A stretch of DNA of 64,000 bases, taken from assembly GCF_004331735.1 (NCBI RefSeq), contig NZ_SJSO01000002.1, positions 62,001-126,000 on the forward strand, written 5' to 3'. Made by a program: the position numbers and the translations under genes. This stretch comes from Pedobacter psychrodurus (GTDB lineage: Bacteria; Bacteroidota; Bacteroidia; Sphingobacteriales; Sphingobacteriaceae). Shown here in pieces: positions 14,336-45,682 of this stretch; positions within the stretch are counted from its first letter, which is position 1; the number at the start of each line of letters is the position of its first letter. Under the pieces are notes generated by a model. It was given only the letters and a program-made list of their open reading frames with translations. It made no database searches and was not told where the DNA came from.

Positions 14336-15521
14336 AGCTATTCGGTTTATTTATCTGTATGTTTTTTTGTGGATACTGATTAGATGCTGTAGGATTAATT
14401 GAGCCTTTTAAAATCAAGTTTTTGACTGATTGAAGATATTGAGTGTATCCGAATGCCTCCATACATTTCTCCTGAAGATTTTTTTTCTCATTTTCAGTTT
14501 GGCTATGCTGTAGCAGTATAGATATGCTGTTTAAAATGCCTTGTTGATCGTCAGGATCAACCAATAGACCAAGCGCCCCGTTTTGAAGTGCATCTACACT
14601 ACCATCTTTATTGCCGGCAATTACCCGAAGGCCACTGGCAAGGGCTTCGATAAATACAATTCCGAAACCTTCTTTTTTACTGGGTAAAATAAAAATATCA
14701 GATAGTAAAAAGTGTTCGGTAAGTTCGGCTTCATCAATAAAACCGATCATTCTGATATGCGCTTGAAGTTGGTTCTTTACAATTAAATCTTCTAATCGTT
14801 TCTTTTCTACAGCATCCCATTTGCCGCCCAATAGGTAAACCAGGTTTGGGTATTCCGCTAATAGTTGCGGCAGCAGCTCAATGGTATGGTCGTATCCCTT
14901 GTACTTCTCTGAAGAAGACAGTCGTGATAACGAAAACAGAATTAAGTTTTCACGATTTAAATGGTAGCGATCCAATAAACGCTGTGGTTTTTCGAACTGC
15001 TTAGGTAGATAATAAAAAGGATCAAGACAATTGTTTAGTACTTCAATGCGATCTGCAGGAATGTGGTGCATTTCCATAATTTTATCTGCAGTAAAATGGC
15101 TTACACAAACAATCTTATCTAGCTGGTTTAACATGTTGAGTTTGGAATCGGATAGCTTTTTCCAAATTTCTATGCCATGCGCCAATAAATAAATCTTTTT
15201 ATGAGGATGTATTTTCTTGATGAAATAAACAATGTTGATTAAGTGGATATGGCTTAACAAAATCACATCTGCTTTTAAACCACTTAAAAAAGATCGCACC
15301 ACGAATCGCTCCTTGTTTCCATTAAAACCATGAAACTGGTATTTGCTTAGGTACCTGGAATCGCGGTCGGCATTTTTATCATACATGGAATATACCGTCG
15401 ATTGAACAAGCTCTTCCTCGCTTAAATCGTATAGTACACGAGATAAACTTCTGCAAACTTTTTCAATGCCGCCAGTAAAACTAAATGTTTTAAGGGTTAA
15501 AAATAAAACCTTAACTGGCAT
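14328..15521 (-). CDS. Family 4 glycosyltransferase
   Basis: 397 residues, GT-B fold. The N-terminus VLFLTLKTFSFTGGIEKVCRSL has the GG-IEK acceptor loop of GT4 enzymes. The donor domain holds LILFSLSRLSSSEKYKGYD, a variant of the sugar-nucleotide strand, and KEGFGIVFIEALASG supplies the E-x7-E catalytic motif. GSVDALQNGALGLLVDPDD follows as the usual end of the family. It overlaps asnB by 11 bp and the permease gene by 8 bp, so all three are probably co-translated. Confidence 0.92.
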   Translation of the reverse strand: MPVKVLFLTLKTFSFTGGIEKVCRSLSRVLYDLSEEELVQSTVYSMYDKNADRDSRYLSKYQFHGFNGNKERFVVRSFLSGLKADVILLSHIHLINIVYFIKKIHPHKKIYLLAHGIEIWKKLSDSKLNMLNQLDKIVCVSHFTADKIMEMHHIPADRIEVLNNCLDPFYYLPKQFEKPQRLLDRYHLNRENLILFSLSRLSSSEKYKGYDHTIELLPQLLAEYPNLVYLLGGKWDAVEKKRLEDLIVKNQLQAHIRMIGFIDEAELTEHFLLSDIFILPSKKEGFGIVFIEALASGLRVIAGNKDGSVDALQNGALGLLVDPDDQQGILNSISILLQHSQTENEKKNLQEKCMEAFGYTQYLQSVKNLILKGSINPTASNQYPQKNIQINKPNSYG

Positions 15522-17298
15522 GGTATATTCTATATAAGGCTAGGGCCGAACTCCAGTGCAATTTATTTTCTCTAAAGTTTTTTATGAGCGATTTTGCACG
15601 CTTATTTGTATACCGGGATGGATCGGCAATGTCGCAGCTTTTTCTCATCCATTCCTGGAATGGGAAAGTAAAGCCCATTTTCGTTCTTTTCCAGGTTTCT
15701 ACAGGTAAATCTTCTTTGTAAGCCTCTACCAGGAGTTTTTTTTTCTGTTCGTAACTAAACTTGATTTCTGTTGAGATGGAGAGAACCAGGTCAACAAAAT
15801 TACGGTCTAGAAAGGGAACCCTCACTTCAACACCATGGCTCATGCTCATAAAATCGGTATCCTTTAACAACTGATTTTGCATATACATGTTCAATTCAAA
15901 CCAACTCGCCCTTGTTTCGTTACTGGTTTTCTTTATTCCAGGGTGAAGTGGGATCTCTTCAAGACAATCGATAACCGTTTTCATATCGATGTCTAACAAT
16001 TCGGCGATCACATCAGGCGAATAAACACCGCGTAAGCACAGGTATTCGCCAATAGGGGAATTTAAGCTGAGGTAATATAGCCGTTTAAACTTGGTGTTGT
16101 TGGAGAAACGCATGCTGCGCAAAACGCTTTTACTCAGCCAATTTAGATTTTGTATTTTATGGATCCGATCAAAGGATGGGTATCCCCCAAAAAGCTCATC
16201 CGCCCCTAAACCTGATAGTACCACTTTTATCCCATGTTCTTTTGCCGTTTTACAGACAAACCAGGTATTAATCCCATCATTGGTGGGTTGATCCATATCT
16301 GCTAAAACAGTTTCGAAATTCTGTACGAAATCGCGATAGGTAATAAGCTGTTCAATTTTTTGAATATTTATTTTTTGAAGTAGACTATTCCGCTGTTTTT
16401 TTTCGGAAAAGTCTATTTCATTAAAATTGGCAGAAATACTGGATAACTGTTTGTTATTATATTGATTAGCCAGTATAGTAATGATGCTCGAATCGAGACC
16501 GCCGCTAAACAGTACACCTATATCAACATCAGAAATCAGCTGCTGCTTGATAGAATTACCCAGCTGTTCGCGGATCCTTTCTATTGCATAGGCTTCGTTA
16601 TGTATATAAGAAGTGTTTTCAAATTCATGGTATGATTGAATAAAATGTTCGGCACTTCTAATGTTGTACTTCAAAAAACAGCCTTTGCCCAGGCTACATA
16701 CATTTTTGAGTGTAGTATAAGGTTCGGGGATATGACCAAAAGCAAGGTAGTAGATTCGCCAATTATCATTTTCCTGGTAGATATTAGCGTGTTTGAATGC
16801 CTTTACTTCTGATGCAAAGGTTAAAGTTTCGTTAGCGAAATGATAATACAGTGGTTTTATTCCGTTTTGATCTCGAACCAGGTACACACATTGTTCCCGT
16901 TTATCAAAAATACAGAAAGCAAAAATACCATCTAGTTTTTCGAAAGCTTTGTCTCCCCAATGCTGATAGGCATAAAGGATTACCTCTGTATCTGTTTGTG
17001 TTTTAAAAATATAACCTAAATTAATTAATTCAGTTCTAATCTGCCGATAATTATAAATTTCACCATTGTAGGTAATCACCAAATCTTCTTTATGGCTTAC
17101 CATCGGTTGATGTCCGCCAGAACTAAGATCTAAAATGGCCAACCTACGGTTACCTAAACATAGGGGTGTTTTTTCAGCGGCATAAATGCCATGATCATCG
17201 GGCCCACCATGTTGCATACTATCGCACATGGCTTTCACCTGTTGATTAATTTTTTCGAAAGGATTTTTGCTATTGATGATGCCTGCTATGCGACACAT
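15511..17298 (-). CDS. asnB: Glutamine-hydrolysing asparagine synthase
   Basis: 595 residues. Processing of the Met exposes Cys2 as the glutaminase nucleophile. NRRLAILDLS, ITYNGEIYN and DTEVIL are glutaminase-pocket motifs. The synthase half has the PP-loop LFSGGLDSSI and LSGLGADELFGGY. The start reads MCRIAGI instead of the common MCGIAGI, so residue 3 is substituted. AsnB-type enzymes are frequent in Bacteroidota capsule clusters, where they may amidate sugar acids (inference) instead of making asparagine. Between this gene and the antiterminator lies a 373-bp spacer with C/T repeats. Confidence 0.93.
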   Translation of the reverse strand: MCRIAGIINSKNPFEKINQQVKAMCDSMQHGGPDDHGIYAAEKTPLCLGNRRLAILDLSSGGHQPMVSHKEDLVITYNGEIYNYRQIRTELINLGYIFKTQTDTEVILYAYQHWGDKAFEKLDGIFAFCIFDKREQCVYLVRDQNGIKPLYYHFANETLTFASEVKAFKHANIYQENDNWRIYYLAFGHIPEPYTTLKNVCSLGKGCFLKYNIRSAEHFIQSYHEFENTSYIHNEAYAIERIREQLGNSIKQQLISDVDIGVLFSGGLDSSIITILANQYNNKQLSSISANFNEIDFSEKKQRNSLLQKINIQKIEQLITYRDFVQNFETVLADMDQPTNDGINTWFVCKTAKEHGIKVVLSGLGADELFGGYPSFDRIHKIQNLNWLSKSVLRSMRFSNNTKFKRLYYLSLNSPIGEYLCLRGVYSPDVIAELLDIDMKTVIDCLEEIPLHPGIKKTSNETRASWFELNMYMQNQLLKDTDFMSMSHGVEVRVPFLDRNFVDLVLSISTEIKFSYEQKKKLLVEAYKEDLPVETWKRTKMGFTFPFQEWMRKSCDIADPSRYTNKRAKSLIKNFRENKLHWSSALALYRIYHAS

Positions 17299-17671: not shown

Positions 17672-18175
17672 TCATAACGGTTCTACAAAAGCTATCGATG
17701 TATTAATATTTATCGAATAACCCATGTTTTGTAAACGTAAAATAATACGTTGCTTATTGTGTACCGATACCAATTCGGCAATTACACCTTTAAAAGGTCC
17801 GGCTTTAATCAATACCCTTTCACCTGGTTTAATATCATAATCAATGATTTCCAGATCAGCATCTGTAGCGAGCAAGAGTTTAAGATCATGAATTTGTTGG
17901 TCAGGGATAGAAGCGACTTGGTTAGAGAAATAAATAAATCTGGCAACACCATTGGTCATCAAAACTTCTGCATATTCTCTTGCCGAAATATACGCAAATA
18001 GATAAGATTTAATCAAGGGCTCCTCAACGATTTTTTTACGGTCGCTCCATTGCTTAACTGCCTTTTTAAGAGGTAAATAAGTTTGGATTCCCTTTCTGTT
18101 CAATTCCTCATTCGCTTTTTTTTCTGCTCTCGAACGTGTATAAACCGGATACCACCTGTAATTTTGATCTATCAT
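17672..18175 (-). CDS. UpxY/NusG-like transcription antiterminator
   Basis: 167 residues, a specialised NusG paralog. The NGN domain begins RWYPVYTRSRAEKKANEELNRKGI and includes KSYLFAYISAREYAEVLMTNGVARFIYF. The C-terminal KOW module is PGERVLIKAGPFKGVIAELV (117-136). In Bacteroides, UpxY proteins let polymerase read through each capsule operon. Its position as the third gene (after wza and wzc), before 17 kb of glycan genes in the same direction, fits operon-specific antitermination. It is smaller than housekeeping NusG proteins with inserts and larger than a bare NGN. Confidence 0.92.
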   Translation of the reverse strand: MIDQNYRWYPVYTRSRAEKKANEELNRKGIQTYLPLKKAVKQWSDRKKIVEEPLIKSYLFAYISAREYAEVLMTNGVARFIYFSNQVASIPDQQIHDLKLLLATDADLEIIDYDIKPGERVLIKAGPFKGVIAELVSVHNKQRIILRLQNMGYSININTSIAFVEPL

Positions 18176-18314: not shown

Positions 18315-20723
18315 TTAACCCTTTCTCTTCCAAAATTCCCACCAGCTCTTCTCATCATCGTAATAGCCACTTTTTCCATAGCCTGTATAATTAGAATAGT
18401 AGTACGTTCCGGTATTACTATGTGCATAATTGGTGGTATAAATGTTAGCATGTAACTTCTCGTTACCAAATGAATTTAGGATAATAGCAATGTTGTTAAG
18501 TCCATATTCTTTTGATAAACGATCAGGAATAGTGGCGGCTCTGAATTTGGAAACGCCTGAACGGATAATAAAGAGATTAATATCTGCCTTTCTGATGAGC
18601 GGAACAGAATCTGAAACCAAGCCTACAGGAGCAGTATCAATAATAATATATTCATAACTTTCCCTGAGCTTTTCAATAAGGGTTCCCATCGACTTGTGAT
18701 GCAACAATTCTGAAGGGTTAGGCGGCACTGGGCCAGAGGTAATATAGTCGATATTATGCCGTTCATCGGTAAAGATGATATCGGCTAAATCGGCCTGTTT
18801 TGACAAATAACTACTTAAACCAATGTGGTTGTCGGAGCCAAAGGCATAGTGGAGTTTAGATTTTCGTAAATCTGCGGCAATCAGGATCACCTTTTTATCA
18901 ATAATGGATAAGGTACCTGCAAGATTTAAACTCACGAACGATTTCCCTTCTCCTGAAACTTCAGAGGTAATACAAATTACCTTGGTCTCCTGATCGCTGG
19001 CCATAAAACTCAGGTTCGTTCTCACCGACCTAACCGATTCGGCAAATATAGATTTTGGTCGTTCTATCGATAAAACGCTTTCACCAAGGCCAACTTTTTT
19101 ATGGTATTTTAAAATCACCCCAATAATAGGGGTTGCTGTTAAACCTTCAATCGTTTCAATATCATATAAATAAGGATTTAATATCCTGACCAATAAAATT
19201 AGGCCCAAACCCGTAAACAGACCCATAAATAAATAAGAAGAATAAATTTTCTTAGGCACGGGAGAAATCGGGAAAAAAGAAGGTTGTGCTGCGCTGATAA
19301 TGGTAGCGCCCGAAATTACGGCTGCTGAGCTGATCTGCGCAGAGAGTTTTCGCTCAAACAACATCGAAAACATGCGTTGGTTAATGTCGAAGTTACTCTG
19401 CAATTTCGCAAAATCATTTTGTTTGGCGGGTATACTGCCCAGTGCCTGATTCGCCTGACCAATTTGCCCGTTAATGTAACTGATTGTTTTTTGGTTACGC
19501 TCATGCAATAGGCGAATGTTGGTTACAATAGCCTGTTTTACTTCATTAATCTGCCGATTAATATCCTGGATGGGCTGAGCATCGGCATTGAAATTCTGTA
19601 ATTTGTTTTCTCTGTTAATGATAAGCCCATTAAGTTGCGTAATTAAACCCGTTAAGAGTGTGCTGTTGGTTCCTTCTAAGTTAAGGTTAAACTGGATCCG
19701 ATCCCTATTGTTTTTTACCTGTGTTTCTAACTGTTGGATACCCAATTCTTGCAATTGTAATTCGGCAATCTGGTTTTGCAGATTGCTCAGTTTCGAGCTG
19801 CCCAGTTGTCGATCGCTAGTGGGATCGATGAGTTTATTGTCACTTTGAAAACTAGAAAGTTTGTTGCCCGATTTATTCACCTGTGCATCTAAAAACGCAA
19901 TCTGGCTATCCAGGTAATCTATAGTTTGTTTGGCCGATCTTTTTTTAAGCGTTGCATCATTCTTTACATATTGTTTGATGATTTCATTGAGCACATTGGC
20001 AGAAAAAACAGGATTACTATCGGTATGGGTAACCCCCATAATATTGGTGTTTTTCTCCTGCTCAAATACATTTAGCCCACCAGCGGCCCGGCCATACAAA
20101 TCTCTGGTTCCATTAAATTTGAAGCTATAATTACCAATAGCAGGGATTTCTGTTTTAACAGTGAAAACCATATTTCCCATACTGATGGCTTGCCCATAAC
20201 GATATTTTTTCAAACGCTGATTGTTATCGTCGCTGGTAGACATTTCAAAGGTTCGGTTATCAACGGGTTTGACGGTATAAGTAGCCCTGCTGAAATTAAC
20301 CGAATCTTGTGTTAAAATATCTACCTGAAAGGGCTGCTTAGGATAAAGTTCGGTTACCCTTACCCTTCCTTCTAAATAGTAGCTAATTTTATAATCAAGG
20401 TTCTTTAAGGCGTTTAAAATTACATCTTCCGAACGCATAATAATGCCTTCGGTTTGAATCTGATTCTGATTAAAAGGACGATAGTTTACAGGAGAGCCAG
20501 GCAGTGAAGCCATTTGTTGCTGCTGGTCGCCATCTAGTTTTAGCGAAGCAGAAGTAATGTAAATAGGGGTAATGCTCCGTACATAAATCCAGGCCATCAC
20601 AAAACTAATCAATACCGTTGCGGCAACCCAATACCACCTGCTTAGAAAAATCAATAGGATTTTCCAATAGTTAATGGTCTGACTGGCTAACTTTCTATTT
20701 TCGGTTGGTGTAGTATTATCCAT
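18315..20723 (-). CDS. Polysaccharide copolymerase fused to tyrosine autokinase (Wzc-like)
   Basis: 802 residues. The N-terminal Wzz domain has a membrane helix near 28-48 (WYWVAATVLISFVMAWIYV). A long periplasmic coiled coil follows, then a second helix near 500 (IYSSYLFMGLFTGLGLILLV). The cytoplasmic BY-kinase carries Walker A in SEVSGEGKSFVSLNLAG (about 590), Walker A' VILIAADLRKS and Walker B YIIIDTAPVG. The tail is a tyrosine cluster (YYYSNYTGYGKSGYYDDE) for autophosphorylation. It would control chain length and export with Wza. Its start overlaps the wza stop. Confidence 0.95.
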   Translation of the reverse strand: MDNTTPTENRKLASQTINYWKILLIFLSRWYWVAATVLISFVMAWIYVRSITPIYITSASLKLDGDQQQQMASLPGSPVNYRPFNQNQIQTEGIIMRSEDVILNALKNLDYKISYYLEGRVRVTELYPKQPFQVDILTQDSVNFSRATYTVKPVDNRTFEMSTSDDNNQRLKKYRYGQAISMGNMVFTVKTEIPAIGNYSFKFNGTRDLYGRAAGGLNVFEQEKNTNIMGVTHTDSNPVFSANVLNEIIKQYVKNDATLKKRSAKQTIDYLDSQIAFLDAQVNKSGNKLSSFQSDNKLIDPTSDRQLGSSKLSNLQNQIAELQLQELGIQQLETQVKNNRDRIQFNLNLEGTNSTLLTGLITQLNGLIINRENKLQNFNADAQPIQDINRQINEVKQAIVTNIRLLHERNQKTISYINGQIGQANQALGSIPAKQNDFAKLQSNFDINQRMFSMLFERKLSAQISSAAVISGATIISAAQPSFFPISPVPKKIYSSYLFMGLFTGLGLILLVRILNPYLYDIETIEGLTATPIIGVILKYHKKVGLGESVLSIERPKSIFAESVRSVRTNLSFMASDQETKVICITSEVSGEGKSFVSLNLAGTLSIIDKKVILIAADLRKSKLHYAFGSDNHIGLSSYLSKQADLADIIFTDERHNIDYITSGPVPPNPSELLHHKSMGTLIEKLRESYEYIIIDTAPVGLVSDSVPLIRKADINLFIIRSGVSKFRAATIPDRLSKEYGLNNIAIILNSFGNEKLHANIYTTNYAHSNTGTYYYSNYTGYGKSGYYDDEKSWWEFWKRKG

Positions 20724-21529
20724 TAGCGGGTTAAGGTAAAGATTAATACGGCCAGATTGACCACTACAAGCAGAGGTTGTACGATATTATTAACACTTGT
20801 TAACTTTTCGCTTAATGCAGCGCTCTTGGTTTGTTGCAGTACAATAATATCATTATTCTGAAGAATCAGTTTTTTGCTGGCTAAGCTGTTGATATCGTTT
20901 AGGTTGACGTAGATGATTTCCGGGTGGCTTCTGTCGCCGCGGATAATTTTAAGGGTCTTAGGGTCTGCGGTTTTGTTAATACCTCCTGCTTCACCAATAA
21001 TGTCAATGAGTGTCGTGTTTTCTCGCTCCAGTAAAAAATTCCCTTGTCTGCCAAATTCTCCCAGTAAGGTTACTTTTAAGTTCACAACACTTAGTTCGAT
21101 AATGGGGTCGCGAAGGAGTTGTTTAGCATATAAATCCTGAATTTTAATGGCTGCGTCTCTTCTGCTTAAACCCATCACATCTACCTTCCCTATGGCCGGC
21201 AGGTTAACTTTACCATCAATATCTACCGGGTAGGAGAGTGTGTTGTTGATGCTACCTCCTGTTGTATTTGAACCAGTGCCAGCCGATGCAATAGCCCCAA
21301 ATTCTTTGTTTTGTACGTTTCGGATGGCCAATTGATCGTTAACCTTTATTTTATAATAGGCATCACTAATACCTTGATCGTTTACCACATACACTTGTTT
21401 AATGGTATCAGTTACCACATCACTTGGGGCGTTAAATAGACTATGCTCTTTTCTGGCAGCACAGCTGGCAAGAGCGATGCTGATAGATAAAATACAAAGA
21501 AATTTTAAAATTGCTTTTCTCGGGATCAT
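20723..21529 (-). CDS. Outer-membrane polysaccharide export lipoprotein (Wza-like)
   Basis: The start is set at ATG 21529 (268 residues) because it opens directly into the lipoprotein signal MIPRKAILKFLCILSISIALASC. LASC is the lipobox. The polysaccharide export (PES) domain is SDAYYKIKVNDQLAIRNVQ. SLBB-like repeats follow (VDIDGKVNLPAIGKVDVMGLSRRDA, then VTLLGEFGRQGNFLLE). A C-terminal hydrophobic segment (VQPLLVVVNLAVLIFTL) may be the membrane-spanning helix. It should form the outer-membrane channel for the Wzc-driven exporter. It is the first gene of the minus-strand operon. Confidence 0.93.
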   Translation of the reverse strand: MIPRKAILKFLCILSISIALASCAARKEHSLFNAPSDVVTDTIKQVYVVNDQGISDAYYKIKVNDQLAIRNVQNKEFGAIASAGTGSNTTGGSINNTLSYPVDIDGKVNLPAIGKVDVMGLSRRDAAIKIQDLYAKQLLRDPIIELSVVNLKVTLLGEFGRQGNFLLERENTTLIDIIGEAGGINKTADPKTLKIIRGDRSHPEIIYVNLNDINSLASKKLILQNNDIIVLQQTKSAALSEKLTSVNNIVQPLLVVVNLAVLIFTLTR

Positions 21530-21571
21530 AATCTTAAATCGGGATGTAGGATTAAGCTTAGCGCTTACACA

Positions 21572-21579
21572 CAAAAATA
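21572..21579 (-). promoter_or_regulatory. Candidate -7 element for the polysaccharide operon
   Basis: On the minus strand TATTTTTG matches TAnnTTTG of Bacteroidota promoters, 43 bp before the chosen wza start. No TTG is present at the expected -33 spacing (a T-run is there instead), so the call is weak. The region 21530-22036 otherwise holds the divergent regulatory sites listed separately. Confidence 0.35.
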
Positions 21580-21787: not shown

Positions 21788-21810
21788 CGTAAAAGTTCGT
21801 TTATGTAGTT

Positions 21811-21838
21811 TTGATACTACAGTTTTGCGGTATATTTG
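21811..21838 (+). promoter_or_regulatory. Bacteroidota-type promoter for the small secreted-protein cluster
   Basis: TTG at 21811-21813, 17-bp spacer, then TATATTTG at 21831-21838, a full match to TAnnTTTG. Transcription should start near 21845, leaving a leader of about 190 nt before the first small gene. Confidence 0.6.
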
Positions 21839-22036: not shown

Positions 22037-22405
22037 ATGAGGTGTTTGAGATTTTTTCTACTGGCTGTATTTACTTGTTTTATAGGTAATGTTCAAGCTC
22101 AATCTGGTTGCGTTGTTGGTGGGATGTATATTTATAACGTGCCAGATGGTACATTTGGAGGGGTGCCAGCCTTTAGGGTCGAAAATCCAGTCACTAGTTA
22201 TGGTGTATTAACTTCGCTTTATTGTGTTGCCTATGGTGCACCTAGTACCTGTTATGTAAATAGTTCTAGTTATATGCCATCATATGGGACATTGGTAACT
22301 TATTCAGCGCTGCCTTGCCCGGTGGATGATTATATTCTTCCTATTATGGGGATTATGGGACTTCTCGCTTTTTACCAGATCAGAAATATCCCTAACTTAA
22401 TTTAA
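22037..22405 (+). CDS. Small Cys-rich secreted protein with C-terminal sorting-like tail (paralog 1)
   Basis: 122 residues. A signal peptide (about 1-21, ends NVQAQ) is followed immediately by S-G-C. Four cysteines lie in the mature part: GC, YC, TC and PC. The tail is C94-P-V-D97-D98, then a hydrophobic stretch (about 99-116) and a short end with Arg. This C..DD - transmembrane - basic layout is shared by the next four genes and resembles PEP-CTERM/PID-type tails cut by exosortases. The fold and function are unknown. No exosortase gene lies in the window. Confidence 0.8.
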   Translation: MRCLRFFLLAVFTCFIGNVQAQSGCVVGGMYIYNVPDGTFGGVPAFRVENPVTSYGVLTSLYCVAYGAPSTCYVNSSSYMPSYGTLVTYSALPCPVDDYILPIMGIMGLLAFYQIRNIPNLI

Positions 22406-22645
22406 TTCTTTGATTGAAGATTTTATTAATTTTTATTAGTTTGATTAACAATGTGTTGGACTTTAAATAAATTAGATTATTACATTAGTATTGCAAAATG
22501 TGGCTCTAATTTCTGTCGAAAATTGTTTTAAAAGTCTAAAGTACTTATTAATTGGTATCAAAAACAACTTTTTTGTATTATTTTATTTACATTTCGGTAT
22601 TCTTACGGTGCTTTTTTTAATCTTTGCGGTATATTGCTCCCGAAG

Positions 22646-23044
22646 ATGCTCAAGATCCTATTTTTCCTTTTAATTACACTTGCCATTTCTCTAACCGCAT
22701 CTGCCCAAACAGGTTGTTTAGTAATGAACTTTGATGCCTATAACAAGGTTTTTAACAATCATGAAACCGCAACGCAATTCTATACAGGCGATGGCAACAA
22801 TTTTGTTTGGTGGGAGGGAGTGTGTGGACCACATACTTACTTAGCAACATCTGGTTCTTCGCAAGGTCCTTGTACTTTAAACGGTTCCTCAAAAACTGGG
22901 CAGATTTATACGATTTCTACAACATTTCAAGCTCCTTGTGGCTTACCCCTCGATGATTATGATGTTTTCTTGTTGGTTTTTGCAGGGATTTTAGGATTTT
23001 TGGTGATAAGAAATAAATCCTTGTTTATGAATAAGCTTTATTGA
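22646..23044 (+). CDS. Small Cys-rich secreted protein with C-terminal sorting-like tail (paralog 2)
   Basis: 132 residues from ATG 22646 (an in-frame TTG at 22634 is less likely). Signal peptide MLKILFFLLITLAISLTASAQ, then T-G-C. The four mature cysteines are GC, VC, PC and PC. The tail is C-G-L-P-L-D-D followed by DVFLLVFAGILGFLVI and RNK. The 240-bp spacer before it is AT-rich with no clear terminator, and a one-mismatch -7 element (AATCTTTG) lies at 22619-22626. It aligns with its neighbours only at the GC start, the cysteine spacing and the tail, so the copies are old. Confidence 0.8.
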   Translation: MLKILFFLLITLAISLTASAQTGCLVMNFDAYNKVFNNHETATQFYTGDGNNFVWWEGVCGPHTYLATSGSSQGPCTLNGSSKTGQIYTISTTFQAPCGLPLDDYDVFLLVFAGILGFLVIRNKSLFMNKLY

Positions 23045-23246
23045 GATTTTATACTTTAAACCTCGCCTCTAAATATTCCTGCTTATTCTTCCTCATTAAA
23101 TTACACGGCTTGGCTTTGACCTTGTTATTTTGAGACCTTTATTTATCTTTCAATTATATCTGATTAAATTCCCAGTTTAAACAGATACCTTCTTTCTTAA
23201 TAGGTCGTTTTGTTTTCTGAATCGTTGTAATAATATAATTTTATTG

Positions 23247-23260
23247 TTGATAAAAATCAA
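23247..23260. promoter_or_regulatory. Second FNR/CRP-type dyad
   Basis: TTGATAAAAATCAA with one more matching base pair on each side gives 7-base arms. It lies in the middle of the spacer before paralog 3, about 150 bp before that gene's -7 element. It is therefore not in the same activating position as the sites at 21.77 and 26.15 kb. Confidence 0.5.
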
Positions 23261-23385
23261 CACACTCTACTTGCTTAAAATCTCTATTTCCAGCTATACT
23301 ACTGTATAAAGCACTTTTTAAATATCTCCAATAATTTTTTAATAAATGCTTTGTCATTTCAATCTTATTTTACAATCTATTCATT

Positions 23386-23414
23386 TTGTTCATGCTCATT
23401 TAATAGTATTTTTG
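23386..23414 (+). promoter_or_regulatory. Promoter for paralog 3
   Basis: TTG at 23386-23388, 18-bp spacer, TATTTTTG at 23407-23414 (a full TAnnTTTG match). The start of transcription would be about 80 nt before the TTG start codon. Confidence 0.5.
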
Positions 23415-23498
23415 TAGCTGTAATAATACGATTTTGATTGCTTTTTGTTTCGTTTTGATGAGGCTAATGCAGCAATCTGCTTTTAGTCCCTATCCCAA

Positions 23499-23957
23499 TT
23501 GAATAAGATTATTTTTCACATTTTATTTTTATTGCTATCAATAATATCAATAAAAAGCACGGCCTCCGACCCTGGGCCTTCATATAGTTGTTTAATACCA
23601 AATGAGGCCGTATATACTAAATGGTTAAAAACAGATTTCGCACCAGGAAATCCTTCGTGGGGGCCTTGGCAATATTACGATACGACAGGTATTAATTATA
23701 CTGTCGATTATAATCAAGGAGATTATCCTCCATGTGGCTATATAAATCCTAATTTTCAATTTTCGCAAAGTGGTACATGTTTCGTGCAAAAAGCTCCCGG
23801 AGTATTTGTTCAGGGTCTTTATGGAGAAATGCACGATTTAACGAGCTGTAATGTGCCTCTTGACGACTCTATTTATCTATTATTTGGTACATCATTATTT
23901 GCCATATACTTTATCCGCTCAAAATCATTAGGATATCAAAAAACTGTGGATAGTTAA
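23499..23957 (+). CDS. Small Cys-rich secreted protein with C-terminal sorting-like tail (paralog 3)
   Basis: 152 residues. The start codon is TTG at 23499: an in-frame stop lies 15 bp upstream and no ATG precedes the signal peptide MNKIIFHILFLLLSIISI. Mature cysteines: SC, PC, TC and SC. The tail is C-N-V-P-L-D-D, then SIYLLFGTSLFAIYFI and RSK. The middle is rich in Tyr, Trp, Pro and Gly (for example GNPSWGPWQYYD), as in extracellular beta proteins. It is the largest of the five. Confidence 0.75.
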   Translation: MNKIIFHILFLLLSIISIKSTASDPGPSYSCLIPNEAVYTKWLKTDFAPGNPSWGPWQYYDTTGINYTVDYNQGDYPPCGYINPNFQFSQSGTCFVQKAPGVFVQGLYGEMHDLTSCNVPLDDSIYLLFGTSLFAIYFIRSKSLGYQKTVDS

Positions 23958-24030
23958 TAATTAGGTTAAGGCTTAAAAACCACGCTCCAGTTATAATCGT
24001 ATATGGCTGCATTAAACCAAACCTTTAGTG

Positions 24031-24450
24031 ATGAAGTCTATCTCGATTACCTTAATAGCTGTATTAATTATGGCATGTTCTAGCTATGCCCAAGTAGGTT
24101 GCCGCACTGGTGATTACATTTATACAACCGCAAACGGCACATATTTTGATGGTGGTTCTACCATTACAAAGTTTAATGCGACAGACAGAATTATAAAACG
24201 AAATTTTGCGGCAGATCCAAATTGCGGTATTGACCGAAATACGGCAGATTCTTATCCCGTTGCTCCAGGAACGCCAGCTAACCCCGATTCTAAATGTGTT
24301 TCTGATATAAATCTTCTTGACGAAGGTAAATTGGTAATCTATAATAATGCAGATAAAGTAAATTGCCCAATAGATGATAATCTAATTTATTTAATCTGTT
24401 CAGCCAGCTTTCTTGGATTTGCACTTGTTCGTAAAAGGCTAAGCCTATAA
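24031..24450 (+). CDS. Small Cys-rich secreted protein with C-terminal sorting-like tail (paralog 4)
   Basis: 139 residues from ATG 24031 (GTG 24028 is also in frame). The signal peptide ends near SSYAQ and is followed by V-G-C. Because ACSS occurs in the signal region, a lipobox was considered, but the AQVGC junction matches the paralogs better. Cysteines: GC, NC, KC and NC. The tail is C-P-I-D-D, then NLIYLICSASFLGFAL and VRKR. This copy has the clearest PIDD motif. It begins 73 bp after paralog 3 and may share its transcript. Confidence 0.78.
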   Translation: MKSISITLIAVLIMACSSYAQVGCRTGDYIYTTANGTYFDGGSTITKFNATDRIIKRNFAADPNCGIDRNTADSYPVAPGTPANPDSKCVSDINLLDEGKLVIYNNADKVNCPIDDNLIYLICSASFLGFALVRKRLSL

Positions 24451-24596
24451 TAAGGGCGAAGAATTTATCTAAACTATATCTCTCTATAGAAACTGTGGTC
24501 TTGGGGCATTTTTTCTTAGCTAATAGTATTGAACAAAAGGAACGGACTTTTTAGTTTATAACCGCAGTAACTTAGTGTATCACTATCAAAAGATAC

Positions 24597-25004
24597 ATGA
24601 GAGGCTTTTGTTTTTTAGTAATACTGATCCTGATTTCTTTTTGCACCTATGGTCAAGGCTCAGCAACGGGGTGCTTGGTGCCATATTATAATAGGGTTTA
24701 TACCTCTAATGCGCTTGAAATATTAGGCTCTTCCCAATTATATAACAATTCTCCTTCAACACCTTTGTCTATTAATTACTGTAGTTGGACTCCAAGTAGT
24801 ACAGCATCTTCATGTGTTATTTGCGACGGAACTCTTGGCGTAGATTTATTCGGTATCAAGATATGTTTGTTAGGTTCGTTCAGATATGGTTCAGAAGGCA
24901 CATTCACAATGGTCGAATGCAACCTCGACGACCATTCATGGCTTTTAGGTGCTGCATTCGGCTTATTTGGTCTGCTAATCATTAAGAGAAGAAGTAAAAT
25001 ATAA
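24597..25004 (+). CDS. Small Cys-rich secreted protein with C-terminal sorting-like tail (paralog 5)
   Basis: 135 residues. Signal peptide MRGFCFLVILILISFCTYG, then T-G-C at the mature end. This copy has two extra cysteines (CVIC and KIC) in addition to the shared four. The tail is C-N-L-D-D, then HSWLLGAAFGLFGLLII and KRRSK, the most basic end of the set. A 146-bp spacer separates it from paralog 4. A glycosyltransferase follows after 111 bp. Confidence 0.78.
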   Translation: MRGFCFLVILILISFCTYGQGSATGCLVPYYNRVYTSNALEILGSSQLYNNSPSTPLSINYCSWTPSSTASSCVICDGTLGVDLFGIKICLLGSFRYGSEGTFTMVECNLDDHSWLLGAAFGLFGLLIIKRRSKI

Positions 25005-25115
25005 AACATTTTTATAGCCTCGAATAGGAAACCATGCGGCATATGTAAAGCTATTCTTTATCTTTACCATAGTTTTCAGCTTTAAAAAAAAGCCGAAAAT
25101 CCCTGTTTGGTAAAC

Positions 25116-25856
25116 ATGAAAATATCCCTAATCACAGTTGTTTATAATGCCGAAGCATTTTTACAAGAATGTTTTGATTCTGTAATGGCGCAAACTTATC
25201 CAGATGTAGAATACCTGTTGATTGATGGGGGATCGACAGATAAAACGTTGAATATTATTCAGGAAAACCGATCAGCCATTGATTATTTTATTTCAGAAAA
25301 AGATAAGGGTTTATACGATGCAATTAATAAAGGGATTCAGCGTGCAACAGGAGAGGTGATTGGGATTTTAAATGCTGATGATCTATTTGCGCATACTGAT
25401 GTATTGGCATCAGTAGCCAAAACCTTCATCGATCAGCCGAAAATAGATGGACTTTATGGTGATCTTAATTATATCCATCCCACAACACATAAAATTATCA
25501 GGACCTGGAAATCACAGCAAAACACCTACGAAGATCTTAAAAAAGGCTGGATGCCCGCACACCCCACGCTGTATTTGAAAAGATCGTTATTTGAAAAAAA
25601 TGGAGATTATGTCTTAGATTTAGGCACCGCTGCCGATTATGAATTAATATTACGTTACTTTTATACCCATAAAATCGAGGCGGTTTATCTGCCCATCTTA
25701 ATGGTGAATATGCGTACAGGCGGCCTAAGTAACCAATCTTTTAGGAGCAGGATCTCTGCCTTTGTTAATGATTATAAAGCCCTGAAAAGAAACCAGGTAC
25801 CATACCCACTTTTTGTAGTGATCAGGAAAAAGCTGCGTAAACTCAGCCAATTTTAA
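25116..25856 (+). CDS. Family 2 glycosyltransferase (WcaA-like)
   Basis: The start is the ATG at 25116 (246 residues, MKISLITVVYNAEAFL). The in-frame TTG nine bases upstream is less likely. Motifs: LITVVYNAE, LIDGGSTDKT, SEKDKGLYDAINKG and the LNADD metal site. It belongs to the same subtype as the minus-strand transferase at 2.3-3.3 kb. It lies between the small secreted-protein genes and the WecA-like gene on the opposite strand from the main glycan operon, so it may build a separate or early part of the glycan. Confidence 0.92.
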   Translation: MKISLITVVYNAEAFLQECFDSVMAQTYPDVEYLLIDGGSTDKTLNIIQENRSAIDYFISEKDKGLYDAINKGIQRATGEVIGILNADDLFAHTDVLASVAKTFIDQPKIDGLYGDLNYIHPTTHKIIRTWKSQQNTYEDLKKGWMPAHPTLYLKRSLFEKNGDYVLDLGTAADYELILRYFYTHKIEAVYLPILMVNMRTGGLSNQSFRSRISAFVNDYKALKRNQVPYPLFVVIRKKLRKLSQF

Positions 25857-26229: not shown

Positions 26230-27309
26230 TTGCTTAAAGATATCCTGAATACCAACCCAAATTATTTCTGTATAGCCATATTTATTTTGGCCTTTTCAAT
26301 CGTAATTATTAGTATTCCAAGTATAATCTATACTTCTTTAAAGTATGGCCTTTTTGATAAGAACGACCTGTACCGTAAAAACCATAAACGCAATATTTCA
26401 CGTTTAGGTGGCTTGGCCATTGTAGGTAGTTTTACTGTATGTATTTTGCTGTTTTCTGCCATTATTAATTTTAAAGAAGCTAATTTTTTAATTGCATCAT
26501 GCATCATCCTTGCGGCACTTGGCCTAAAAGACGATGTTTATGGCACCAATACCAGTACAAAATTTATTTTGCAGATTGTGGTGGCCTTTATCCTCGTGTT
26601 TTTTGGTGCCTTCCGTTTAACAAGTTTATACGGTGTACTGGGCATAGCAGATATGGCGCCTTTATGGGGAAGCCTTTTTTCGATTGCATTGATTATTTTC
26701 CTAAATAATGCATTCAATTTAATAGATGGTATTGACGGCTTGGCAGGTGGAATCGGCATTTTAACGAGCCTGGTTTTCGGTATTTTGTTTTCTTCGATGG
26801 GGCAGGTACCTTATGCATTTATCGCCTTTGCCCTGGCAGGTGCCATAGCTGGCTTTTTAAAGTACAATTGGTTTCCTGCTAAAATATTTATGGGCGATAC
26901 AGGAGCACTAATTATTGGACTTATTTCTGCTGCACTAGCCATTAAATTTATAGAACTCAATAAGTTTACCGGAGCAAGCAAGCCAGCCTTTTATTCTGCA
27001 CCAGCAATAGCAGTCGCCATACTGATCGTACCCGTGTTCGACTCTTTAAGGGTGTTCACCATCCGTATTTTAAAAGGACGCTCTCCGTTTAAGGGAGACC
27101 GTAACCATATCCACCACCGTTTAGAGCAGTTAGGGCTTAAGTCTAACTGGATCGTAATTTCTACTGCTGGCTTTAATCTGGCTACAATAGCGGCTACCAT
27201 TATCCTTCAGCATCTTGGAAATTTTGTGCTGATTATGCTCATTATTGGTCTCTGCATCATGTTTAATACCCTGTTAACCTTAAGCCTGCTTAAAAAGAAA
27301 GGAAGGTAA
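26230..27309 (+). CDS. WecA/MraY-family polyprenyl-phosphate sugar-1-phosphate transferase
   Basis: 359 residues with about ten or eleven membrane helices. The start is a TTG (26230); no ATG precedes the first helix. Catalytic motifs: LGLKDDVYG (Asp-Asp), NNAFNLIDGIDGLAGG, IFMGDTGAL and the cytoplasmic GDRNHIHHRLEQLG loop. The HIHHRL form is typical of WecA-like enzymes that attach GlcNAc-1-P or a relative to undecaprenyl phosphate. It probably starts assembly of the surface glycan, although it lies outside the main operon. MraY itself is present at 58.4 kb. Confidence 0.92.
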   Translation: MLKDILNTNPNYFCIAIFILAFSIVIISIPSIIYTSLKYGLFDKNDLYRKNHKRNISRLGGLAIVGSFTVCILLFSAIINFKEANFLIASCIILAALGLKDDVYGTNTSTKFILQIVVAFILVFFGAFRLTSLYGVLGIADMAPLWGSLFSIALIIFLNNAFNLIDGIDGLAGGIGILTSLVFGILFSSMGQVPYAFIAFALAGAIAGFLKYNWFPAKIFMGDTGALIIGLISAALAIKFIELNKFTGASKPAFYSAPAIAVAILIVPVFDSLRVFTIRILKGRSPFKGDRNHIHHRLEQLGLKSNWIVISTAGFNLATIAATIILQHLGNFVLIMLIIGLCIMFNTLLTLSLLKKKGR

Positions 27310-43870: not shown

Positions 43871-44395
43871 ATGTATAAAAAGAAAATTTTATTGATTATA
43901 GCTGTTCTTGTTCTAATCACTTCTCTTCTCAATATAAAAGATTTTTATACGAAAATAACCATTCCTGTAGAAGGCACTAAACCCATAATAAACTGGGATG
44001 AGAAAAGTTTTTGGTATTACCCTTGGGGCGAATCAGATATCCACAGGGGCATAGATATTTTCGGGGATTTAGACGCACCAATTTTAAGCCCTGTTAAAGG
44101 TATTGTTATAAAAAGTGGGACTAGCGCCAATGGTGGTAATTACATTTATATTCTTTCATCTGATCTTAAAACCTACTATTTTGCTCATTTAAATAAACGA
44201 ATGGTTAAAACCTTTTCTTTAGTTGATACAAAAGATATAATTGGTTTAATGGGCGACACTGGGAATGCAAAGTTTAGCCAGTTTCATTTACATTTTTCTA
44301 TTTTTTCGATCGTACCGATCATTCGTTTTTATGATTGCAAATCAATAAAAGGATGGCAAAAGATGTTCTATCTTAATCCAGAAAGTTATTTTTAA
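43871..44395 (+). CDS. M23 family metallopeptidase, membrane-anchored
   Basis: 174 residues. One N-terminal membrane segment (about 5-22) places the domain outside the cytoplasm. DIHRGIDIFG (His and Asp zinc ligands, about 56-65) and QFHLHFSI (HxH) are the LytM/M23 zinc site; LGDTGNA-like MGDTGNAK precedes it. Active members cut peptidoglycan cross-links. This one is short and lacks LysM or coiled-coil parts. It opens the accessory island, 24 bp before the O-antigen-ligase-like gene. Confidence 0.88.
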   Translation: MYKKKILLIIAVLVLITSLLNIKDFYTKITIPVEGTKPIINWDEKSFWYYPWGESDIHRGIDIFGDLDAPILSPVKGIVIKSGTSANGGNYIYILSSDLKTYYFAHLNKRMVKTFSLVDTKDIIGLMGDTGNAKFSQFHLHFSIFSIVPIIRFYDCKSIKGWQKMFYLNPESYF

Positions 44396-44419
44396 TAGAT
44401 AAAAATTATAAATATTGAG

Positions 44420-45682
44420 ATGATGCGCCGAAAAGCTAAAGATGTATTCATAAATCTTTCAAAATATACTGTTTTCTTTTTCGGAATCATTATTTCAGTT
44501 TACTTTGAGAGCAGAGCATTTGCAGTAGGCTTCATATTATCGTTTATCGTTACATTGTTTTTGTATGGAAAAATTAAAGCTAAAAAATGGAACCTAATAC
44601 TGGTTGCACTTGCAGGAAGCTTTGTATTGCTGTGTGCTATATTTTTCGTTAAAACAGATTCGTCCTTGGGCAGAATCTTTATTTATAAAATTTCATCCCA
44701 GATCTATAAGCATAACTGGCTTAAGGGTATAGGCATCGGTAAATTTAAAACAGTTTACATGCATTACCAGGCAGATTACTTTAAAAAGGGAAAGTTTACA
44801 GAGACCGAATTACTGCTGGCTGATAATACTTATTTCGCTTTTAACGATTATTATCAGTTTATTATTGAAACAGGCATTGTGGGAATATTTCTGCTGAGCA
44901 TTTTTTTTCTGCTAATTTTCTTGTTGATAAGAAGAGCTATTTTCAGCGACAGAGAATCAGTCATTTTACTTAATGCCATTGGTATATTCATCGCCATATG
45001 CTTTGCTGCATGTTTTACCTATGTATTTAATAAATTGGAATTTCAATTTGTTTTTGTACTTTGCATTACAATATTAAGCAGAAGCTTTTTTAAACGAGCG
45101 AATGCTTTCTTTGTAAAAGCCATCCCACTTATTGGTACTATTGTAATTTTCATTTTGGCAGCCAATACTTACAATTTTGATTTACGGAATTATTATGCCT
45201 TACTAAGCTTAAAAAAAGTAAGACAATTAGAGCAGGCAGGCTATCGATATGAAGCACGCAAATTATTATTAGATAATGAAAAGCATTTTTACAACGATGA
45301 CGAATACCTGGAATTAAAATCTTATTTATTAGCCAACAATATGGAACTTGATAAAGCGGAGGTGGCGACCAAACTGTTGATAAAGCATAAGCCGAGCAGC
45401 ATGGCGTATGCGCGTTTGGCTTATATATATAAACAGATGAATAAAAATGATTTAGCAGAACAATTTTATTTAAAAGCGATAAATATGGTTCCAAACCGAT
45501 TTGGAGTCCGTTATTCATTATTCCTGTTTTACAGAAGTATCGGCAAAGAAGATAAATCTCTAAAGTGCGCCAATGAAATATTAAAACTGCCAGTTAAAAT
45601 ACCTTCATTAACAATAGATCAGATTAAATTAAACTTAATTAAATATAAAAACGAAGAAGATAAAATAAAGACAATTAACTAA
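44420..45682 (+). CDS. O-antigen ligase/Wzy-like C-terminal half with TPR domain; N-terminus missing
   Basis: 420 residues. It begins almost directly with the membrane strand that carries ESRAFAVGFIL, the SRA motif normally found about halfway through O-antigen-ligase family proteins. SSLGRIFIYKISSQIYKHNWLKGIGIGKF and the NTYFAFNDYYQFIIETGIVG loop (with the conserved aromatic and Glu) follow. The last 140 residues are TPR-like. Usual members have five or six more helices in front. I infer a truncated or minimal ligase; activity is doubtful. Confidence 0.7.
   Translation: MMRRKAKDVFINLSKYTVFFFGIIISVYFESRAFAVGFILSFIVTLFLYGKIKAKKWNLILVALAGSFVLLCAIFFVKTDSSLGRIFIYKISSQIYKHNWLKGIGIGKFKTVYMHYQADYFKKGKFTETELLLADNTYFAFNDYYQFIIETGIVGIFLLSIFFLLIFLLIRRAIFSDRESVILLNAIGIFIAICFAACFTYVFNKLEFQFVFVLCITILSRSFFKRANAFFVKAIPLIGTIVIFILAANTYNFDLRNYYALLSLKKVRQLEQAGYRYEARKLLLDNEKHFYNDDEYLELKSYLLANNMELDKAEVATKLLIKHKPSSMAYARLAYIYKQMNKNDLAEQFYLKAINMVPNRFGVRYSLFLFYRSIGKEDKSLKCANEILKLPVKIPSLTIDQIKLNLIKYKNEEDKIKTIN

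Follow-up and report, generated by a model that had tools for sequence, protein, structure and literature searches.

Five cysteine-rich secreted proteins of Pedobacter psychrodurus share a C-terminal tail that suggests sorting by exosortase Y

In the PEP-CTERM/EpsH system of exosortase A, a tripartite C-terminal signal is jointly distributed with the exosortase, and the exosortase belongs to a polysaccharide cluster (PMC1569441, available portion). Exosortases have been proposed to cut their substrates near the signal's motif by way of conserved, sortase-like Cys, Arg and His residues and to attach the C terminus so created to a compound that these papers leave unidentified (PMC1569441 and PMC7468200, available portions). 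Among the Bacteroidota, XrtF of Flavobacterium johnsoniae is an exosortase with a role in biofilm formation and surface colonisation (PMC10936215, available portion), and a 2025 paper states, in the portion available, that the targets of XrtF are not yet known (PMC12188702). Substrates of Bacteroidota exosortases have been obscure. We found no published targets of exosortase Y (XrtY) in the literature searched; the open-licence literature gave no mention of PID-CTERM, exosortase Y or the model NF046083, no paper joining exosortase and Mucilaginibacter and, for exosortase and Pedobacter, only an aminolipid paper with the word in its reference list. Here we describe a stretch of 64,000 nucleotides of the Pedobacter psychrodurus genome (contig NZ_SJSO01000002.1, positions 62,001 to 126,000, or C12:62001-126000 in whole-contig coordinates; hereafter the window), in which five genes at 22037-25004 encode small, Cys-rich secreted proteins with a common C-terminal tail that we call the C-DD tail. 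We consider it quite likely that the five are substrates of the XrtY encoded by the adjoining polysaccharide gene run, with a predicted cut near the DD motif.

All five genes lie on the + strand, and none of their products matched a Pfam or NCBIfam model above its cut-off. They encode protein 1 (22037-22405, 122 amino acids, tail PCPVDDY), protein 2 (22634-23044, 136 amino acids, tail PCGLPLDDY), protein 3 (23499-23957, 152 amino acids, tail SCNVPLDDS), protein 4 (24028-24450, tail NCPIDDN; 140 amino acids from the GTG at 24028 or 139 from the in-frame ATG at 24031) and protein 5 (24597-25004, 135 amino acids, tail ECNLDDH). The starts of proteins 2, 3 and 4 are uncertain because the first two begin with TTG and the last with GTG. 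Each protein has an N-terminal hydrophobic signal, assigned by eye and hydropathy, a nearby Cys in a G-C or S-C pair and a variable middle, and ends in C-x(1-3)-[LIV]-D-D, a hydrophobic helix and a basic end rich in Arg and Lys. With the signal peptide at one end and motif, helix and basic residues at the other, each has the layout of a CTERM-type signal. In the alignment of the full proteins C25, Y33, P69, C72, D97 and D98 are invariant (numbering of protein 1); in the tail-only alignment the Cys and both Asp residues are.

A sequence-only reading of this DNA had already described five secreted proteins at this position, with signal peptides ending next to G-C or S-C and with a C..DD motif, a transmembrane helix and a basic tail, and this description was borne out, with three amendments. 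The spacing between the Cys and [LIV] of the tail, given there as 0-3, is 1-3 residues. Four Cys residues between signal peptide and tail helix, claimed for every protein, are present in proteins 1-4, whereas protein 5 has six (C26, 62, 73, 76, 90 and 108). The middles, called unrelated, are nearly so: the shuffled-score z was below 2 in nine of ten pairs but reached 3.6 for proteins 1 and 4.

When we searched the 6.09 Mb genome (58 contigs) with a profile of the five window tails (profile A2), the five proteins were recovered at E values of 8.7e-17 to 1.1e-12, all within this cluster, and the next match stood at only 0.44. Since A2 was built from the very proteins that it recovers, the independent test is whether genomes other than this one have the tail too. 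They do: 20 Pedobacter clusters, chosen for comparison among the best C-DD matches, contain 73 tail open reading frames, two to five per cluster. Their distances to XrtY range from 25 to 44 kb, and 71 of the 73 lie on the strand opposite XrtY. A Cys stands a few residues ahead of the motif in 67 of the 73 tails, the commonest form being the CNLDD of protein 5 (15 of 73).

The P. psychrodurus genome encodes two exosortases, XrtY and exosortase N (XrtN). The former scored 244.8 bits against NF046083 (curated cut-off 160), and its C100, R141 and H163 are invariant in 108 of 108 XrtY sequences. Its gene (G000:C12:46498-47094, - strand) lies on the same contig, about 15 kb to the left of the window, near the 3' end of a same-strand polysaccharide run that is presumably one operon. 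The first gene of the run diverges from the five tail genes; these and XrtY bound a single cluster on opposite sides, with about 37 kb between them. Two further products of the cluster exceeded their model cut-offs, namely the XrtY-associated Wzy-like protein of NCBIfam (640.8 bits, cut-off 420) and the glycosyltransferase XYAG1 (594.1 bits, cut-off 400).

The C-DD tail is found almost only in genomes with XrtY. Our sample comprised 251 genomes of the family, each at least 95% complete, in which we took XrtY as present at 100 bits or more; 110 genomes qualified, 96 of them over the curated cut-off, and eight weaker matches were counted as lacking XrtY. A C-DD profile of 49 tails, consisting of the five window proteins and loci found with A2 (profile A3), matched 59 of the 251 genomes at E≤0.01 and 47 at E≤1e-3, and 45 of these 47 have XrtY. 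The weak matches revealed a second tail class, mini-proteins of 74-94 amino acids with a signal peptide and a P-[LI]-D tail, most of which have an acidic, Cys-containing stretch between the two. A profile of nine mini-proteins from seven genomes, six of them XrtY-positive (profile A4), matched 114 of the 251 genomes, and the PID-CTERM model matched 34. A4 also matches C-DD tails, so the tail classes overlap. Any of the three tails (C-DD by A3 at E≤1e-3, mini by A4 at E≤0.01, or PID at E≤1e-3) occurred in 108 of the 110 XrtY genomes versus 12 of the 141 others (Fisher test, 3e-54, ignoring shared ancestry), profiles A3 and A4 not being independent of the genomes that supplied their rows. Seven of these 12 have a different exosortase that exceeds the TIGR04178 cut-off. 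Within Pedobacter (61 genomes), 51 had both tail and XrtY, one the tail only, one XrtY only and eight neither (2.7e-8, ancestry again ignored). Because the tail is nearly confined to XrtY genomes, XrtY is likely to be the enzyme that cuts it off, and it would then fix the proteins to the cell surface or to its sugars. The sequence-only reading had proposed exosortase-type substrates, had suggested the tail search and genome survey reported here, and had rightly found no exosortase in the window; its interpretation is strengthened by the two exosortases of the genome, the conservation of the tail in relatives and its tracking of XrtY. The refuting outcomes it had named that computation could reveal, a genome lacking any exosortase gene and a tail not conserved, were not observed. 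A2 and A3 matches that lacked the motif were rejected as chance (G015, G068, G080, G096 and G083, and further G029, G032, G058, G078, G123, G143, G161, G219 and G221).

Tail type follows the clade of the enzyme, not the genus. Among the 52 XrtY-bearing Pedobacter genomes, 40 had C-DD tails only, 11 had PID tails only, none had both at the thresholds used and one had neither. We built a quick tree from 108 of the 110 XrtY proteins, leaving out the interrupted ones of G160 and G217, and the 41 C-DD-only rows fell on one side of a single branch (Shimodaira-Hasegawa-like approximate likelihood ratio test [SH-aLRT] 85), requiring one change as against a shuffled mean of 33; G026 and G111, labelled by mini-proteins, are exceptions. 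The C-DD clade includes two genomes of another genus, presumably Mucilaginibacter (G197 and G248), whose XrtY is 52-54% identical to that of P. psychrodurus and lies outside a polysaccharide cluster, with one weak glycosyltransferase match only within 10 kb (L092). Their C-DD proteins are encoded far from XrtY, and one protein of G197 (L338:1774-2178) is 48% identical to protein 2 over 106 columns (E 2e-34). In other genomes of this genus, 20 tails were read among the best-scoring loci, and all but one had PLD[TSN]W; four further loci (L227, L228, L268 and L269) gave no readable tail. A hydropathy search near XrtY in Mucilaginibacter-like stretches returned export lipoproteins and unrelated proteins as its only tail-anchored candidates; the tail candidates of Mucilaginibacter-like genomes are mini-proteins elsewhere in the genome.

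Several observations weigh against processing of these tails by XrtY, beside the shared ancestry that the Fisher values ignore. Five of the 12 tail genomes without XrtY have no exosortase by TIGR04178 (G053, G101, G106, G157 and G198; the tail protein of G106 is L181). The enzyme of G157 may be unassembled, because less than 0.5 kb separates its tail gene from an end of the contig. G178, assembled as a single contig, encodes one real-looking CPLDD protein (L184; E 0.0022, outside the count) and no exosortase by TIGR04178. Conversely, the three profiles found no tail in G080 and G121, which have XrtY. The XrtY frames of G160 and G217 are interrupted by stops (G160:C29:155509-156025 and G217:C30:19591-20102), yet these genomes keep seven and four tail matches, respectively. 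G001 has C-DD tails and an XrtY outside the C-DD clade; one of its C-DD proteins reaches the PID-CTERM cut-off (26.1 bits; 23.5 in another search), which indicates that no sharp line divides the two tail types. Foldseek comparison with the PDB gave no significant fold match for either the protein 5 model or XrtY. Lastly, the identity of the acceptor is something that we only infer. A sequence search of the PDB retrieved no exosortase.

In the mechanism that we favour, Sec export would deliver the Cys-rich domain to the periplasm and leave the tail helix behind in the inner membrane. C100 of XrtY, together with R141 and H163, would attack the chain near [LIV]-D-D, and the protein would then be handed to an acceptor, for which a lipid-linked sugar made by the same cluster is the likeliest candidate, and would reach the surface together with the polysaccharide. 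The strong divergence of the paralogs' middles would lend variety to the surface, the tail being held constant. The polysaccharide cluster points to a glycan-bearing acceptor as the likeliest partner, as does the fusion of XrtY, in 20 of 108 genomes, in one frame to a homolog of the family 2 glycosyltransferase (GT2) that precedes it in P. psychrodurus. Both parts of the fusion were matched in all 20 cases; the fusions measure 464-493 amino acids, account for six changes on the XrtY tree (examples are L076:9963-11399 and L078:9925-11376, with 18 more) and suggest a glycan acceptor. A fuller model, which is tentative and may well prove wrong, would make XrtY a protein-glycan ligase working as one unit with the neighbouring GT2: GT2 would make the lipid-linked sugar, XrtY would attach this sugar at the C terminus newly formed on diversifying, Cys-rich C-DD proteins, and each XrtY clade would read its own version of a P-[IL]-D code, namely C-x-[LI]-D-D in Pedobacter, PLD[TSN]W in Mucilaginibacter and PIDGG elsewhere.

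Other explanations of the tail have to be weighed against cleavage by XrtY. It could be a stop-transfer anchor and no more, the proteins remaining uncut as single-pass proteins of the inner membrane. An anchor of this type needs no more than a signal peptide, a single hydrophobic helix and a basic end, and the AlphaFold model of protein 5 (pLDDT 78.7), a beta-rich domain at 22-107 followed by the tail, gives an ordinary helix at 111-132. The conserved part of the tail (Cys and [LIV]DD) lies outside the helix core, however, and there would be little reason for a simple anchor to follow one exosortase subfamily or its clades, so that we regard this explanation as unlikely. We give still less credence to hitch-hiking, whereby tail genes and xrtY would move together as members of a single polysaccharide cluster, neither acting on the other. 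The shared cluster in all 20 Pedobacter comparisons, with 25-44 kb between tail genes and xrtY, is what hitch-hiking would produce, but the joint distribution holds although the tails are on other contigs or far off in G108, G154, G163, G199, G197 and G248, and mini-proteins can also be far from XrtY (in G029, XrtY is at C1:38429 and the tail at C1:2446611).

The presence of XrtN in the genome (TIGR04476, 382 bits; contig 29) raises the question of whether this second exosortase processes the five proteins, which we judge very improbable. XrtN has its own adjoining target, a VIT-domain protein with VPEPHEWAL in its tail (L001:2244-3557; TIGR04477, 555 bits), and none of the five proteins matches that target model. 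XrtN exceeds its cut-off in only 15 of the 251 genomes, 45 of the 47 C-DD genomes lack it, and none of the five genomes with XrtN and without XrtY (G017, G048, G134, G151 and G230) has any of the three tails. We therefore dropped XrtN as a partner on the grounds of its own target and this distribution control; the XrtN system spans L001:910-3557 (G000 contig 29). The named homologs of protein 5 are hypothetical or uncharacterized proteins, save one UniRef entry (P0004) named 'LPXTG cell wall anchor domain-containin...', the one hint that the five might be Gram-positive-type LPXTG proteins. This is hardly credible, since no Pfam or NCBIfam family exceeded its cut-off in the five and the alignments have no LPXTG motif ahead of the helix. 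Type IX secretion cargo was also rejected, there being no match to Pfam Por_Secre_tail in the five.

The part of the polysaccharide run inside the window (383-21574, - strand) diverges from the five genes and continues past the left edge to XrtY. It begins with an export lipoprotein (20723-21574, -), followed by a Wzc-like kinase (18315-20723, -) and an UpxY antiterminator (17672-18175, -), and also encodes an asparagine-synthase-like amidotransferase (15511-17298), an ABC exporter and glycosyltransferases. The amidotransferase resembles the XrtA/PEP-CTERM amidotransferase model at 349.8 bits, below the cut-off of 816.9. On the other side, a GT2 (25107-25856, +) adjoins gene 5, and a homolog of it is also found near a tail gene in G157 and in the second cluster of G148; it is followed by a WecA-like sugar-phosphate transferase (26230-27309, +), which scored 134.7 bits against TIGR02380, below the cut-off of 326. 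Upstream of the tail genes we noted Bacteroidota-type promoter-like sites at 21810-21838, before gene 1, and 23385-23414, before gene 3. Genes 1 and 2 are each preceded by a copy of the same 13-base sequence, at 21824 and 22623 respectively, without mismatch. Farther along the window, 43871-45682 encodes a peptidase-like protein (weak match to the endopeptidase ShyC) and then an O-antigen-ligase-like membrane protein with TPR repeats.

Related tail genes also occur beside other exosortases. They directly precede XrtX-like exosortases in G061, G128 and G179 and overlap such a gene in G038; these four enzymes scored 111-124 bits, below the XrtX cut-off of 170. In G148, a mini-protein frame with a PLDD tail (L078:9041-9334, 97 amino acids, start uncertain) separates XrtY from two large proteins; the closer of the two matches Laminin_G_3 and, weakly, Por_Secre_tail (25.0 bits, cut-off 27).

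With these results XrtY gains candidate substrates in named Pedobacter species, as a defined set of several members, and an apparent code linking enzyme clade to tail type, which is open to test by swapping, while the GT2-XrtY fusions give a concrete hint at the acceptor. Among known systems, C-DD shares with PEP-CTERM/EpsH the tripartite C-terminal signal, the joint distribution with an exosortase and the polysaccharide cluster; it differs in having no PEP motif, a different exosortase subfamily and an XrtY-type cluster. The sequence-only reading was right that a Cys before DD is unlike classic PEP-CTERM. The XrtY of P. psychrodurus also shows some likeness to XrtF, matching the XrtF model at 48.4 bits, below its cut-off of 90.

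PID-CTERM (NF046080) is closer. Like C-DD, it consists of a short P-[IL]-D motif, a helix and a basic end on small secreted Bacteroidota proteins, and an exosortase was matched at E≤1e-3 in every one of its 34 genomes (XrtY in 27, weaker matches in seven). C-DD differs from PID-CTERM in its Cys shortly ahead of the motif, in having DD where PID-CTERM has GG, in a longer Cys-rich domain and in the presence of several paralogs per cluster. None of the five proteins matched the PID-CTERM model (cut-off 26 bits), and the genome has one sub-threshold match elsewhere (12.5 bits). Profile comparison with hhalign placed PID-CTERM and C-DD in register, with a probability of only 21.8% (E 0.001). The PLDTW variant is closer to C-DD than PID-CTERM is (96.5%, E 9.5e-10), and NCBI already applies the name PID-CTERM to one PLDTW protein, from Mucilaginibacter terrenus; a mini-protein of G250 scored 29.0 on the PID-CTERM model, bridging the gap to the five. 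The C-DD tail would appear to be a new variant of exosortase sorting signal whose nearest named relative is PID-CTERM.

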